Assembly (NCBI GenBank): GCA_947462255.1
Contig: CANHOA010000005.1
Span: 62,001 to 126,000, forward strand
Length of the DNA stretch: 64,000 nucleotides
Direction: 5' to 3'
Source of the DNA: Flavobacteriales bacterium
GTDB lineage: Bacteria > Bacteroidota > Bacteroidia > Flavobacteriales_D > Crocinitomicaceae
Shown here piece after piece: positions 18,391 through 25,508 of this stretch; the stretch's first letter is position 1, and each line of letters starts with the position of its first letter. The position numbers were made by a program, and so were the translations under genes. The notes under the pieces are model-generated. The model had not been told where the DNA came from. It made no database searches and was given only the letters and a program-made list of their open reading frames with translations.

Positions 18391-19491
18391 TTACTTAGAG
18401 AAATACGAACCATTAATGCTTAGGCCAAAGCGAATAGGATAAATGGCAATGGTGCTTCCTTTTTTGAATAAGGGTGTTAAACTATACTCTACAAAAGCGC
18501 CTAAATACTTACCAAAACCTGCTCTAACGGTTGCGTCTAAGGAAAAGTGCTGCAAATTAAAACGTGAAGACGTTGTATTATTAAACTTATCGCCATTCGC
18601 ATATTCTCCCGTTTGTGTACTCGTAGAAGCAAAGCGCCATGCACCAATAACACCTGCGGCGAGGTAAAAACTCTTTTTAGCTTCTGGCTTAGTGGTAAAT
18701 TCCAGTAATAAGGGCAAAGTCAAGCGATGCATTGCCAATGCATTATTTTTATACGATTGGATAGTGTCCGAGACACAAAAAACAGTATCGTTACTATGCT
18801 GAATACGGTAATTATTTCGTAAGGCAAGACTTGTCAAACCATAGCCTAATCCGGTGGTCAAACCTAAATATTGTTTAAAAATGGGAAGCTTATATTCTAG
18901 AAAATTAACATTGATGGCCACGGATTTAACCGGATCTATTTGCCAATAATCATTCGTGCTAAAATCCGTATCAAAACGTGAATTCGTCTGTTCATTTAAA
19001 CGAAACATGCTCACAAAACCAAGATCAAAAGCGACCCAATGTGGCTCATATTTAGGTTCGTCGGAGTCGTCAAATTCACCTTCACCCTCAAGGTCAAATG
19101 ATATTGGTAAATTCATCACAGTCCTTGTTGCCAAAGAAGTATCTGCTGATCCAGGAAGCCAATTCGGCATACTAGATACTACCCGAAGCGCTTCTTGTTC
19201 TATGGCTGGACAATTGATTCCTTTAAGGATTTCCACATTTGCAACCTTCCCGTCTTTTTCAACATAAAAACGGACATACACCTTGCCTTCAACACCCAAC
19301 TCAATGGCTGATTCAGGGTACGTGATATTAGTATGAATAAAACGCATGAGCGCTTCATGTCCACCCGGAAAAGTTGGTTCAACATCATGAGGCCCTTCTA
19401 CTACTTCAATCGGAGGAGGTAAGGGTTCTTCTTGCGAGAACATGCTGGAAACAATAGAAAAACAAAAAAATAAAAGTAATTGAGTTTTCAT
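18391..19491 (-). CDS. TonB C-terminal domain fused to an outer-membrane beta-barrel domain
   Basis: A 366-residue protein with a signal peptide (residues 1-19) and a Pro/Glu linker. A TonB C-terminal domain follows at about residues 35-130 (PTFPGGHEALMRFI, YPESAIELGVEGKVYVRFYV, IEQEALRVVSSMPNW), then an acidic hinge (EGEGEFDDSDEP). A beta-barrel domain of about 220 residues comes next (YEPHWVAFDLGFVSMFR ... FGLSINGSYFSK), similar to PorT/OmpW-like barrels. There is no inner-membrane anchor, so it cannot act like classical TonB. It lies 20 nt downstream of the TonB-dependent receptor, in the same TPP-controlled operon. The domain calls are good; the role is inference. Confidence 0.78.
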   Translation of the reverse strand: MKTQLLLFFCFSIVSSMFSQEEPLPPPIEVVEGPHDVEPTFPGGHEALMRFIHTNITYPESAIELGVEGKVYVRFYVEKDGKVANVEILKGINCPAIEQEALRVVSSMPNWLPGSADTSLATRTVMNLPISFDLEGEGEFDDSDEPKYEPHWVAFDLGFVSMFRLNEQTNSRFDTDFSTNDYWQIDPVKSVAINVNFLEYKLPIFKQYLGLTTGLGYGLTSLALRNNYRIQHSNDTVFCVSDTIQSYKNNALAMHRLTLPLLLEFTTKPEAKKSFYLAAGVIGAWRFASTSTQTGEYANGDKFNNTTSSRFNLQHFSLDATVRAGFGKYLGAFVEYSLTPLFKKGSTIAIYPIRFGLSINGSYFSK

Positions 19492-19511
19492 AGGAAGTAG
19501 TTATTCGTTAA

Positions 19512-21971
19512 TTAAAATTTAAAAAGCACTCGACACATTAAATTTCTTCCCGCTTGAGGGTAATAAAAATTCTCTGTTGTTTTTTGACCATCATAAAGGT
19601 ATGAAAAAGTATACCCGTTATTAGCATAAAGATAATTAAAAATATTATTCACCTGAAGACCGAAATTGATTTCTTTTCCTAAAACATGTCTAAGCGCATA
19701 GTTAAGCGTTAGATTACTATATGAAAAAGCCTTTATGCTTCTATCCAGCGCAGCGGTATTGTCCAAAAATTGTTGCGACACAAACTTACTCATCCATTCC
19801 ACATTCATATTTTTAAAGGGCTCCCATACCACACCAAGGCTGGCCACTACATTTGGAGAAAAGGCCAAATCCACGTCTTTATGCGTGATAATTTGTTGCG
19901 AATAATAGGGTTCCGTGGAGGAATAAACATCCAAAAATTCATTGAATTCTTTTATTTTATTTTGACTTAAGGCCAAAGCCCCATTAAATTTTAAGAAAGA
20001 AAATGGCGCATAAGCGGTATTCATTTCGATACCCAATCGATAACTTGAGGGAACATTGGTACGGGTATAAGAACCCACATCATTAATTTCACCCGTTAAA
20101 ATAAGTTGATTGGTATAATCCATGAAATAAGCATTTACATTCAACAGTAGCTTCGATTTTTTGTAGGTGTAGCCGAATTCAACATCACGTAAAATCTCCG
20201 CTTTGGGTCGGCTATTTGGAGTACTTTCTCTAAAATCTTTCCGCACGGGTTCTCTATGAGAAATACCAAAAGAAGCAAAAATGGATTGCGCGTAAGAAAG
20301 CTGTCTTGAAATGGAAATTTTTGGGTTTAAAAAATCAAATTTTACCCGCTGCTGCACATCTTTTAACACGCCTGAAACTTGATCCACGCCCAAAAAAGAA
20401 TAGTCCAAGTGCCTAAATTGGATGTCACCATTGAACGTCCAATCTTTCAGCTTATACGATCCTTTTACGTAGGAAGACCATTCCGATTTTTGACCAGTTT
20501 CATTGTAATAGCGATCTCCTAATTCCGAATCAGAAGCAAAACGAGACCAGATCACTTCCCCATAATGACGACCCAAATACGTATTCACCGAACCACCCCA
20601 CACCACATTTAAACGGTGTTTAAAATAGGAAAGAGAAAAGACAGATCCTACAAAATCATTGTTCAACCAACGCTGGCGAATTAGATCACTTGTGGTAAGT
20701 GTATCGTTTCCTACGACCACCGAAGAAATTCCATACCCGCTAAGTGTTTGGTTGTTTTTATATTCCTCATAATACCCTCTTCCATACGTATAGTGACCGG
20801 AGATATTTAAAAGTAAATTCGATTTTATGGAATAGGCATAGTGCAATTGATAGTTATCTTGCTTGTAATTATCCACTTGATTTTTGTAGGTGTAATAATT
20901 ATACGTTCTTCCCGAGGAGATTAAATTTTGTCTTTCCTCTGGACTTAATAAATTGCGATCAGCATACGCATTCATCTCCGCTACATCGCCGGTTAAACTA
21001 CTTTCTGGTGTGCCATACCAAGCCTGATACGTCAACTCATGACCACTAAAGACAAGCGCTTTCAGAAGGAAATTTTTACCGAGGTAAGCGCCAGAAAAAT
21101 AGATGGAATTTAAATTTGATTTAGCTCGATCTAGAAATCCATCGGAAGAAATACGAGAAAGACGCGTTTCAAAATTAAACTTTTGATTGAGGAGCCCCGT
21201 TCCAATTTTAATAGAATTTTTGAGCGTATTAAACGCCCCATAACTATTGTCAATCGTTGCGTAGGGCGTTTCGGAAAGATTGCTAGACTTCAGGTTTAAT
21301 CCTGCGCCAAAAGCGGCAGCACCATTGGTAGAAGAACCAATACCGCGTTGAATTTGAATATTTTCAATGGAGCTGCTCAAATCAGGCATGTTGACCCAAT
21401 AAACATCATGCGATTCAGGATCATTGATAGGAATACCATTCAAGGTGACATTGATGCGAGAAGCATCTATTCCTCGAATTCGCATTCCTGTATACCCTAC
21501 TCCATTTCCTGCATCTGAGGTAGTTACTAAGGAAGGCGTGCCATCCAATAAGAAAGGCAAATCTTGTCCAAAGGCCTTTTTTTCTAAGGTTTTCTCTTCA
21601 ACAAAAATCGCGGAGGAAGATGCAGCAGACGCTCTGGTAGAGGTAACTTGAACCTCTTCTAGCGTTTGGGTACTTTTATAGAGCATGATTTTTAATGGAA
21701 CATTAAAATCTTCCGAATAAAAAAAGTTGGCACTTGAAGTGTATCCTGGGCATTCAAAAACAAGCGTGTTTTGACCACCAATTACAAGTCCTATGCTAAA
21801 TTTTCCTTGCGCATCGGTTTGGGTACAGAAAGTTGTGGATTGTATACAAACCTTTACGCCTTCCAACAATTTCCCTTCCTCATCGGATACGACACCCGTA
21901 AAATTATTTTGTCCAAAAGAGAGAAAAGTCGATACTAAAAAACTGATACTGATAAAAATTCTTGTTTTCAT
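19512..21971 (-). CDS. TonB-dependent receptor under a TPP riboswitch (probable thiamine/precursor uptake)
   Basis: An 819-residue outer-membrane receptor. It has a signal peptide from ATG 21971 (MKTRIFISISFLVSTFLSFGQ), a carboxypeptidase-regulatory-like domain (residues about 22-100: FTGVVSDEEGKLLEGVKV) and a plug domain (VQVTSTRAS ... MRIRGIDASRINVTLNGIPINDPESHDVYW). A 22-strand-type barrel follows, ending with the aromatic CRVLFKF. The TPP riboswitch immediately upstream makes thiamine or a thiamine precursor the likely substrate; TPP-regulated receptors of this type are known in Bacteroidota. An iron or vitamin B12 role is less likely given that regulation. The frame extends 8 codons upstream, but that removes the clean signal peptide. 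Confidence 0.9.
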   Translation of the reverse strand: MKTRIFISISFLVSTFLSFGQNNFTGVVSDEEGKLLEGVKVCIQSTTFCTQTDAQGKFSIGLVIGGQNTLVFECPGYTSSANFFYSEDFNVPLKIMLYKSTQTLEEVQVTSTRASAASSSAIFVEEKTLEKKAFGQDLPFLLDGTPSLVTTSDAGNGVGYTGMRIRGIDASRINVTLNGIPINDPESHDVYWVNMPDLSSSIENIQIQRGIGSSTNGAAAFGAGLNLKSSNLSETPYATIDNSYGAFNTLKNSIKIGTGLLNQKFNFETRLSRISSDGFLDRAKSNLNSIYFSGAYLGKNFLLKALVFSGHELTYQAWYGTPESSLTGDVAEMNAYADRNLLSPEERQNLISSGRTYNYYTYKNQVDNYKQDNYQLHYAYSIKSNLLLNISGHYTYGRGYYEEYKNNQTLSGYGISSVVVGNDTLTTSDLIRQRWLNNDFVGSVFSLSYFKHRLNVVWGGSVNTYLGRHYGEVIWSRFASDSELGDRYYNETGQKSEWSSYVKGSYKLKDWTFNGDIQFRHLDYSFLGVDQVSGVLKDVQQRVKFDFLNPKISISRQLSYAQSIFASFGISHREPVRKDFRESTPNSRPKAEILRDVEFGYTYKKSKLLLNVNAYFMDYTNQLILTGEINDVGSYTRTNVPSSYRLGIEMNTAYAPFSFLKFNGALALSQNKIKEFNEFLDVYSSTEPYYSQQIITHKDVDLAFSPNVVASLGVVWEPFKNMNVEWMSKFVSQQFLDNTAALDRSIKAFSYSNLTLNYALRHVLGKEINFGLQVNNIFNYLYANNGYTFSYLYDGQKTTENFYYPQAGRNLMCRVLFKF

Positions 21972-21998
21972 TTGTTTCAAATTACACAAGAACAAGGG

Positions 21999-22025
21999 GC
22001 TAATTCCAGCTGGTTATTAATTAGC
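21999..22025 (-). promoter_or_regulatory. Hairpin between TPP aptamer and receptor start (possible expression platform)
   Basis: GCTAATT and AATTAGC (7 bp) flank a 13-nt loop that itself contains the palindrome CCAGCTGG. The hairpin sits between the aptamer and the ATG (28 nt away) and lacks a T-run, so it is more likely a translational or anti-structure element than a terminator. Confidence 0.4.
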
Positions 22026-22026
22026 A

Positions 22027-22117
22027 CAGTCATCTTCCCTTCGTAGGCATTATCCTAAATCAGGTTCAATGGGTATAATCTCAGCCTTGTCACGGGCACC
22101 CCTTAGAGACGGTGCAA
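22027..22117 (-). ncRNA. TPP (THI-box) riboswitch aptamer
   Basis: On the minus strand the conserved THI-box blocks appear in order: GGGGTGCC (22095-22102), GGCTGAGA, ACCCATTGAACCTGAT (TGAACCTGAT at 22059-22068), GGATAATGCC and GAAGGGAAGATG. Spacing matches the thiamine pyrophosphate aptamer. It ends about 56 nt before the TonB-dependent receptor start and should repress the operon when TPP is abundant. Recognition is strong because all nucleobase-contact blocks are present. Confidence 0.95.
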
Positions 22118-22137
22118 AATTATGAACTATTTTACTC

Positions 22138-23611: not shown

Positions 23612-23698
23612 AAAATTATAGAATTTTAGTTTGAATATAACCACCCCTTTACGCGCGATTTTTCGTTACCTTCAACGAGGAGTACTGCAAAATTGAAT

Positions 23699-24250
23699 AT
23701 GCTAAAGGAAGAATGGATTGCTGGATCAATGAAATTAGACCGGAAGAGTCAATTGGCTTTGTACAATTATTGTTTTCCTGAATTAAAGAAAGCCGCACGA
23801 AAATTTTTCAGCACTGATGTAGAACTTATGCATGTCATTAATGGCTCATTCATTAAAATCATTGAAAACCTTCATAAGTACGAACCTATCAACTTCAACG
23901 CTTGGATTAAGCGAATTTGTACCAATGAATCCATAGATTACCTCCGAAAAAACAAAAAATACAAAGAAACCTTTCTCATCAAAGCGTCAGAAGGAATAAA
24001 CGAACCTTTCGAAGCGCCTTCTATTGAAACGAGCATAGAAAATGAGCACCTTGAATCTCTTTTACTTCAACTGAATACCCCTTGTCGGATCGTATTTAAT
24101 CTATTTGCCCTTGAAGGATTTTCGCATAAAGAAATAAGCCAATCCCTCGGGATTACCGTGGAGACCTCAAAATGGCATACCAAAATGGCCCGCAAAAAAC
24201 TAAAAGACTTACTTGCAAACACTCAAAAAAAAATTATTAACCATGGATAA
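23699..24250 (+). CDS. ECF-type RNA polymerase sigma factor
   Basis: A 183-residue sigma-70-family protein of ECF size. Region 2 spans about residues 20-90 (FNAWIKRICTNESIDYLRKNKK is the DNA-melting helix region), and region 4 lies near the C-terminus (CRIVFNLFALEGFSHKEISQSLGIT...SKWHTKMARKKL, a helix-turn-helix). The start is ATG 23699; the TTG at 23693 is an alternative. It overlaps the next gene by 8 nt, a barrel protein with a cytoplasmic N-terminus, the usual place for an anti-sigma factor. Its target genes are unknown. Confidence 0.9.
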   Translation: MLKEEWIAGSMKLDRKSQLALYNYCFPELKKAARKFFSTDVELMHVINGSFIKIIENLHKYEPINFNAWIKRICTNESIDYLRKNKKYKETFLIKASEGINEPFEAPSIETSIENEHLESLLLQLNTPCRIVFNLFALEGFSHKEISQSLGITVETSKWHTKMARKKLKDLLANTQKKIINHG

Positions 24251-25508
24251 AAAGCCTGACGAATCTAATTCATTTAATCAAATTCCGGAAAACTACCTAA
24301 TTGACTTAAACCTGCGCTTGGATGCCTTGGAAAAAAAACGCAAGCGTAAACGCATTTTCTACATATGGTTTCCTATCCTGCTGCTATTTGGGATTGGCTT
24401 AGGCATGTATCAATCACTTAGACCTAATTTGCCGACGACTAAAGTTTCTGTTGACAAAGCGCTTACCCTGGTTTCTCCTACAACTCCAAATTCAAATCGC
24501 AATTCAACGTATAAATCAACTCCCGATTCAACTCAGAAATCAATACAGAAACAAAACAGCCTCAGCAGACACCTTGAACCTACTCCTAAAACTTCCATTC
24601 AATCCAAACGAACTGAGAGTGCAACAGAATTGAATATCGAAACACAGCGAAAAGACACCATCCCCTTTACTTCTGATGACGCTAAAATTGCGGCAGAGGG
24701 ACTTAAAGCTGAAAAAGTAGCAGTTGCACACATCGATTCCAATTTTTCCAAGATCGAAATGTCTCCAAAACCAAGTGAATTTAGGATTCCCTTCCGAGAA
24801 ATACCCCCGATTGCTTTGCACCGCATTGGCTTTTTCACATGGCCCATCTTAGAGACCTCGCAAGAAAGAAAAACGGAAGTTTCTTGGCAGCATATGCTCG
24901 GGTTTTCCTGCGGTGTGAGCGGGATCATTTCCTCTTTTACTCCGATGGAAAACCCCGTAAGTTCGTTTTTAAATACTACCTACGGCGATTATAAAAGCTA
25001 TGCCCAAGCACGAAAAGAAGCAGAGCGCGCCACCAGTTCCTTGGATTTATCGGTATTTTATCGGCAACAAGCCAAACATTGGTTTTATCAAGTGGGGATC
25101 GCCTATAATGAATGGGGTGAACAAATTGTATATCCGTTCAATTCAATTGATGGAACCAACCGCTACCGTTACCTCAACATCCCTATCTTTGCGGGCTATC
25201 AATGGACCAAAAACAAAGTGAGTCTAAGTCCAATGCTGGGACTATCTGCTGGAATTAAACTGAGCGGAAGAGGGTACTATCTAATGCCTAATGGCGGTGT
25301 AGACATCGTTGAAGCACAAACTTTTTCTACTTCCGGTATCGCACAAATCGAATTGGCGTATCACCTGAATCCATTCATTTTCCATTTTACCCCTGGTATT
25401 CGTAGCTCCATTGGTTCCCCTGTAAAATCGGCGGTTACAAAAAATAGCTACCAAGCGATTGGATGCCAAATCGGGTTTATTTATCTTTTGGAGCATAAAA
25501 GAAAGTGA
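24243..25508 (+). CDS. Membrane-anchored protein with outer-membrane-barrel-like domain (anti-sigma-like partner)
   Basis: A 421-residue protein. About 36 cytoplasmic residues end in a basic KKRKRKR stop, then one transmembrane segment follows (about residues 38-57). A Ser/Thr/Gln/Lys low-complexity linker spans about residues 70-150, and the C-terminal region (about 215-421) has porin-like strand patterns (FYRQQAKHWFYQVGIAYNEW, AIGCQIGFIYLLEH). The start ATG lies within the sigma-factor 3' end (8-nt overlap), as is typical of sigma/anti-sigma pairs. A transmembrane protein that also carries a barrel is odd, since the two should sit in different membranes. No named anti-sigma domain is visible. 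Confidence 0.7.
   Translation: MDKKPDESNSFNQIPENYLIDLNLRLDALEKKRKRKRIFYIWFPILLLFGIGLGMYQSLRPNLPTTKVSVDKALTLVSPTTPNSNRNSTYKSTPDSTQKSIQKQNSLSRHLEPTPKTSIQSKRTESATELNIETQRKDTIPFTSDDAKIAAEGLKAEKVAVAHIDSNFSKIEMSPKPSEFRIPFREIPPIALHRIGFFTWPILETSQERKTEVSWQHMLGFSCGVSGIISSFTPMENPVSSFLNTTYGDYKSYAQARKEAERATSSLDLSVFYRQQAKHWFYQVGIAYNEWGEQIVYPFNSIDGTNRYRYLNIPIFAGYQWTKNKVSLSPMLGLSAGIKLSGRGYYLMPNGGVDIVEAQTFSTSGIAQIELAYHLNPFIFHFTPGIRSSIGSPVKSAVTKNSYQAIGCQIGFIYLLEHKRK

Follow-up and report, generated by a model that had tools for sequence, protein, structure and literature searches.

A predicted TPP-controlled TonB-dependent transporter and its outer-membrane barrel partner, with or without a TonB_C domain, in a Flavobacteriales genus

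Some transporters of the Bacteroidota have an outer-membrane companion, as in BtuB–BtuG and SusC–SusD, where the companions are surface lipoproteins; to our knowledge, the known receptor companions of this phylum are of that kind. For thiamine, the closest described system is OMthi (BT2390) of Bacteroides thetaiotaomicron, presented in the part of PMC5613172 on which we draw as a TonB-dependent thiamine transporter led by a thiamine pyrophosphate (TPP) riboswitch; the same part has PnuT importing thiamine, and OMthi, pnuT and tnr3 forming one operon in most gut genomes. Dedicated TonB homologues have been described as well, namely HasB and FusB (PMC9008036, PMC7593965, PMC13253070), FusB being given as an inner-membrane protein in the portion of PMC13253070 used here. 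The present analysis concerns a two-gene unit on the minus strand of a 64,000-nucleotide (nt) stretch of a Flavobacteriales bacterium (contig CANHOA010000005.1; hereafter the window), in which a predicted TPP aptamer with full architecture heads the genes for a TonB-dependent transporter (the receptor) and for a fusion of a TonB C-terminal domain (TonB_C) with an outer-membrane barrel. As judged by sequence comparison across the genus, the constant partner of the receptor is the barrel, and TonB_C is optional.

The two-gene unit and its barrel partner

At the head of the unit is the aptamer (22019..22113 (-)), conserved in 67 aligned leaders, to which all positions of the Rfam model RF00059 align (model 1-105, 54.2 bits, E 4.1e-10 in a local E-value scan). 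Its score lies 0.1 bit under the gathering score of 54.3, and for this reason an Rfam gathering-threshold scan of the whole window listed one tRNA only and not the aptamer. The preliminary description of this DNA had seen a complete aptamer about 56 nt ahead of the receptor; the full alignment and E-value bear this out, although the covariance-model score stops just short of the cut-off, and the distance from the P1 pairing end (22029) to the likely receptor ATG (21971), taken in place of the TTG at 21995 in the open reading frame list, is 57 nt. The receptor gene (19512..21971 (-), 819 amino acids, ATG start) is followed on the same strand, 20 nt past its stop, by the fusion gene (18391..19491 (-), 366 amino acids), whose product is predicted from Pfam, a structural model and synteny to comprise a signal peptide, TonB_C and a barrel. 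This TPP site is the single one in the window's genome (2.67 Mb in 42 contigs, with 95% completeness). Rfam matches occur in 68 of the 86 genomes of the genus sample, over the cut-off in 42, with 71 sites in total.

Seventy of these sites were fetched in addition to the window. Three have no receptor match, in eight the receptor is cut and two end too soon, leaving 57 readable. At 54 of them the next gene, in the same orientation, encodes a barrel, which has TonB_C in 41 cases and lacks it in 13. Counting the window, 55 of 58 readable sites have a barrel gene behind the receptor, 42 of these genes carrying TonB_C and 13 not, and those receptors are 49-97% identical to the window's. The median gap between receptor and fusion gene is 27 nt in the 41 fused pairs. 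Counted from the other side, the genus holds 55 fusion genes, of which 54 have a match running from TonB_C into the barrel and one, at L113, was reported by its barrel alone; 50 of the 55 lie directly behind a receptor, including eight on contigs with the TPP end missing. The preliminary description had proposed that the fusion protein is a dedicated accessory of this receptor, and had suggested comparing the neighbourhoods of its homologues: these are found mostly at the receptor and not away from it, so that synteny supports a dedicated tie of the fusion gene to the receptor, while TonB_C itself proved not to be a constant part of the accessory.

This last point follows from the 13 of 55 partners that are barrel-only, and from a locus (L104:787-1578(-), genome G214) where the receptor is 97% and the barrel 86% identical to the window's and TonB_C is absent in frame while the signal peptide remains. 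The tree of barrel domains, with 78 rows, 54 with TonB_C and 24 without (L095, L129, L240, L234 and L244 were excluded as cut or doubtful), holds four changes in TonB_C presence when all rows with the domain carry one label, the figure used here, and six if receptor-distant fusions are labelled apart; L243 and L245 sit at contig ends, with the upstream gene off the contig. All four changes are forced by well-supported branches, the barrels of other genera form one group, and the tree is compatible with one gain of TonB_C and repeated loss. The tree of the TonB_C domain itself (100 columns; five changes in the best tree, one forced by starred branches, a single group in 0% of 200 bootstrap trees) neither shows nor excludes a single fusion origin. 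Across a 395-genome sample of the phylum, with about five candidates scored per genome, both domains were matched, among the matches listed, only in the two genomes of this genus.

The best 80 receptor relatives in named genomes extend the picture. The gene next to them is a fusion in 33, a barrel-only gene in nine, cut in four and without a barrel in 34; two of the 34 (L148, L164) are exceptions within the genus (G148, G188), and the other 32 are assumed to lie outside it. A TPP aptamer over the cut-off precedes the receptor in all 13 of the no-barrel relatives scanned, and since these barrel-less relatives retain the switch, the link between receptor and switch is wider than that between receptor and barrel. 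Just upstream of the receptor, 17 of the 34 carry a PnuC-family gene together with an AAA_28 kinase and one more carries just the kinase, 18 in all, an arrangement seen in none of the 42 barrel loci; the pair was confirmed by Pfam for L171 and L194 only. The kinase of these loci (L171:3742-4841, L194:3671-4806 and 16 others) could be an unrecognised thiamine kinase; AAA_28 is a family that we take to include NadR-like kinases.

None of ten further barrel matches from the genus, which share 30-43% identity with the window's barrel, has TonB_C. Most of the nine that lie away from a receptor are preceded by genes of about 160 and about 350 codons on the same strand, which look sigma-factor-like by eye; such paralogous barrel genes are seen mid-locus in L273-L280. 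In the window itself, at 23693-25508, another sigma-factor-like gene (by eye) is followed by one whose product has a hydrophobic segment and matches a barrel family weakly (PF13568, 21.1 bits, cut-off 27).

The receptor and the fusion protein

The receptor carries the Pfam domains CarbopepD_reg_2 and Plug (PF07715, 44.2 bits, cut-off 23.9), and the same scan lists no family for the barrel of TonB-dependent transporters. An AlphaFold model built from 31 alignment rows (mean predicted local distance difference test score (pLDDT) 80, predicted template modelling score (pTM) 0.77) resembles such transporters over residues ~110-819, with highest similarity observed for PqqU (Z 32.1, r.m.s.d. 3.2, 614 residues) and with FhuA, FecA and BtuB near Z 31; structures 8blw and 8bmx are among the matches. 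A PDB sequence search gave no match. The first gene is thus a TonB-dependent transporter as far as the Plug domain and the model go, as had been proposed. Identity with SusC/RagA was ruled out (TIGR04056, 45 bits against a cut-off of 368). At 14 of the 41 fused loci the receptor match begins after residue 90, the N-terminal domain being absent. In one clade of such loci (L074, L088, L083) the N-termini of the fusion proteins share a stretch near VLEKPQLVEK directly after the signal peptide.

In the fusion protein, TonB_C occupies residues 38-138 (19078..19380 (-); hmmsearch, PF03544 at residues 55-134, E 5e-15, 56.1 bits, cut-off 24.6) and the barrel residues 147-363 (18403..19053 (-); hmmsearch, OMP_b-brl_2 at residues 180-342, E 8.4e-8, 32.9 bits, cut-off 27), and the gene is therefore the TonB_C–barrel fusion, 20 nt downstream, that the preliminary description had seen. 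Its predicted model (40 rows, pLDDT 86, pTM 0.59) has a poorly ordered linker at ~137-144. By VIA-align, TonB_C resembles the C-terminal domain (CTD) of Neisseria meningitidis TonB (Z 10.6, r.m.s.d. 2.0, 83 residues) and Escherichia coli TonB in its complex with BtuB (Z 8.8), and the barrel resembles NspA (Z 13.5, r.m.s.d. 2.8, 151 residues) and OmpA (Z 13.2); the FusB CTD matches the model with Z 8.4. The number of strands in the barrel, eight, is taken from the predicted model and its eight-stranded matches.

For 53 fused proteins the start is usable. Simple motifs, and not a dedicated predictor, call a type-I-like cleavage site in 52 of these and a lipobox in none; the median length before TonB_C is 28 residues and the median linker between TonB_C and barrel 13. 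The fusion protein has neither an N-terminal inner-membrane anchor nor a long periplasmic spacer. Owing to the signal-sequence motif, the missing lipobox and the short spacer, TonB_C should be periplasmic and tethered at the outer membrane, and a protein so built, lacking a membrane anchor, is on its predicted domains not a TonB energy transducer. A TonB of ordinary type, with a hydrophobic N-terminus, a proline-rich stretch and TonB_C, is encoded elsewhere in the window's genome (L253). Secreted-looking stand-alone TonB_C proteins, one single-domain and one two-domain, occur in another family of the class (L250:1501-2747).

Thiamine supply and the leader

ThiC was found in none of the 86 genus genomes (controls positive in 13 of 14), and the best match to thiamine monophosphate (TMP) synthase in the window's genome, 95% complete so that one absence is no proof, reaches 19.1 bits against a cut-off of 27, with none over it. 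On other contigs this genome encodes, over the cut-off, a thiamin pyrophosphokinase (TPK) with both domains and a carrier of the PnuC family, to which PnuT presumably belongs and which is present in 75 of the 86 genomes. With no ThiC, no TMP synthase over the cut-off and TPK present, thiamine import is the likely job of the unit, and the precedent of OMthi and PnuT, as far as given in PMC5613172, makes thiamine uptake the natural reading. The genus is probably thiamine-auxotrophic and the substrate of the transporter is likely to be thiamine, so the earlier suggestion of a thiamine uptake unit fares well. At least one genus member has a ThiM–TMP-synthase operon: the TPP site with the top score in the genus (72 bits), at L062 (G065:C14), stands before ThiM-like and TMP-synthase genes and has no receptor match. 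At L131 (G206:C169), likewise with no receptor match, a weak TPP match (39.6 bits) lies directly before a PnuC-family gene and a thymidylate synthase gene; at L108 the contig ends after 168 codons, and no receptor match was seen.

The leaders of the genus share a layout beyond the aptamer (69 leaders, L062 and L131 excluded; they are related by descent, so that counts are not independent). In 60 of the 69, a TAnnTTTG box (22115..22122 (-)), which we take to be a box of the -7 type, has its end precisely 4 nt ahead of P1; nine lack the exact form, and of 3400 random 20-nt windows 34 contain it. The probable start of transcription is at the aptamer. The element CCCCTT (21994..21999 (-)), invariant in the 67-leader alignment, is predicted to act as the anti-P2 element of the expression platform: in 68 of the 69 folds computed without ligand, it pairs (P>0.5) with the P2 5' strand. 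A predicted hairpin (21958..21993 (-)) encloses the receptor start codon: the mean z of 52-nt windows around this codon is -2.50 over the 69 leaders, whereas 52 starts of gene 2 average -0.14 and 85 starts of other genes (L142-L165) -0.04, and in one clade a hairpin around the same AUG is built from different letters. It is present alike in free and P2-forced folds in the five examples shown, and the T-rich codons that follow it may merely reflect the signal peptide. Matches in scans for promoters and terminators were no more numerous than in shuffles, and no site was listed in the 20-nt intergenic gap. This conserved platform, with its fixed-distance box, invariant CCCCTT and start-codon hairpin, spans 21958-22122 in the window and recurs in leaders L063-L130. 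With the start codon inside a conserved hairpin, the leaders bear on how TPP switches act in Bacteroidota, described as uncertain in the part of PMC5613172 drawn on here.

Proposed function and comparison with known systems

The reading to which we give a probability of about one half is that the locus is a thiamine-uptake unit of an auxotrophic Flavobacteriales genus, in which the second protein serves the receptor as a dedicated companion in the outer membrane, its TonB_C docking, non-energised, on that receptor. Low TPP would raise expression of the unit, the transporter would move thiamine or a phosphate of it across the outer membrane, and the PnuC-type inner-membrane carrier and thiamin pyrophosphokinase encoded elsewhere would complete uptake. 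The barrel would be the constant part of the companion; the N-terminal TonB-like domain would lie next to the receptor on the periplasmic side and act as a holder on the receptor's N-terminal region (the TonB box or a neighbouring domain) while the cell's ordinary TonB provides the force. As TonB_C is absent in several lineages, such docking would be helpful, replaceable or lineage-specific, and not essential. A bolder extension, which we regard as tentative, is that an outer-membrane-anchored TonB_C represents a new kind of receptor partner, holding or gating the periplasmic face of the receptor in cis through TonB-box recognition without an inner-membrane motor, and that TonB_C domains without an anchor may be in wide use among Bacteroidota as regulators on the receptor side.

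Several observations weigh against the companion reading. At three readable sites (L073, L103, L109) no partner is next to the receptor, a barrel or fusion gene being located elsewhere in those genomes (L140, L141, L229), and five of the 55 fusion genes are not behind a receptor (G127, G229, G230, G148 and G145, the last having a receptor followed by a barrel-only gene, L282). Barrel-only homologues in other genera lack a receptor match within ~4-6 kb at all eight loci picked from the best barrel-only matches, and nine of the ten fetched genus barrel loci lack one within ~3 kb, the tenth being the receptor partner in G145; because of these receptor-less loci the barrel family is wider than the unit. 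TonB_C presence changes at least four times on the barrel tree with the receptor retained, only 12 of 21 aligned fusions retain the YP pair of TonB, and the substrate is read solely from TPP control and missing pathway genes. The receptor-less barrels and the changes of TonB_C, together with the stand-alone TonB_C proteins of the class, lend some weight to a humbler account in which the partner is an ordinary small outer-membrane protein co-transcribed by chance, its TonB_C being a general periplasmic binding domain with no role at the receptor; we hold this to be possible but doubtful, as the partner is kept at 55 of 58 readable sites behind receptors that have diverged to as little as 49% identity.

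The canonical fold of TonB_C and the YP motif present in the window's fusion protein could instead point to a latch, in which the anchored domain fills the TonB box of the receptor in competition with genuine TonB, and so gates the receptor or protects it from toxins and phages that depend on TonB. With domain and receptor tethered in one membrane, the local concentration would be high, and the part of PMC12204202 drawn on ties the receptor N-terminal domain to TonB contact; that domain is missing at the 14 fused loci noted above, and the five of these included in alignment A1 are all without YP. However, YP is missing in nine of the 21 aligned fusions, four of which pair with receptors keeping the N-terminal domain, and a natural partner without TonB_C stands beside a 97%-identical receptor, so a latch appears unlikely. 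That the fusion protein itself energises the receptor is barely credible: TonB_C is encoded directly with the receptor and HasB and FusB, as described in the parts of the papers cited above, are precedents, but this candidate was rejected for want of a transmembrane anchor, the stretch before TonB_C is short, a barrel takes up the C-terminus and an ordinary TonB is present in the genome. A substrate other than thiamine, such as a pyridine riboside, with the TPP switch as a side control, would suit the PnuC-family and AAA_28 genes of the 18 no-barrel relatives, given the NadR-like kinases presumed in that family; it is nevertheless quite improbable, as a TPP aptamer lies directly before the receptor in all 13 such loci scanned and PnuT, presumed above to be a PnuC-family member, imports thiamine.

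Annotation usually reads TonB_C as 'energy transducer TonB'. Here the domain is predicted to be outer-membrane-sided and unanchored, and both the substrate and the control of its unit can be read from the genome; since near-identical natural loci exist with and without it (the window and L104), the role of an unanchored TonB_C is testable. A bacterium without key genes of vitamin B1 synthesis places an outer-membrane importer and a second barrel protein under a predicted vitamin-B1-sensing RNA switch, and in it and many relatives the latter protein bears the domain with which TonB, the supplier of energy, normally grips receptors.

Among described systems, the unit is like OMthi in having a TPP riboswitch directly before a TonB-dependent transporter, in a genome that also encodes TPK and a carrier of the PnuC family, a likeness of gene context; unlike there, the next gene here encodes a barrel or TonB_C–barrel protein, pnuC and TPK are on other contigs, and ThiC is missing. 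With FusB and HasB it shares a TonB-CTD fold tied to one receptor (FusB CTD, Z 8.4), whereas FusB is an inner-membrane protein and the fusion protein has a predicted signal peptide, an outer-membrane barrel and no anchor. As in BtuB–BtuG and SusC–SusD, a transporter is co-encoded with an outer-membrane partner, but the partner is a predicted integral barrel with a periplasmic domain and not a surface lipoprotein. OmpA-type proteins likewise combine a small eight-stranded barrel (OmpA, Z 13.2) with a soluble periplasmic domain, which in the fusion protein is TonB_C and is placed before the barrel. The stand-alone TonB_C proteins of L250 have the same signal-peptide-like start followed by TonB_C without a long spacer, yet carry no barrel. 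No TonB_C–barrel fusion or unanchored TonB-like protein is described in the titles and abstracts listed by searches of an open-access library, nor in the part of PMC12204202 drawn on here. TPP-led TonB-dependent thiamine transporters and dedicated TonB homologues of the inner membrane are thus already known, and the TonB_C–barrel partner appears to be the new element.

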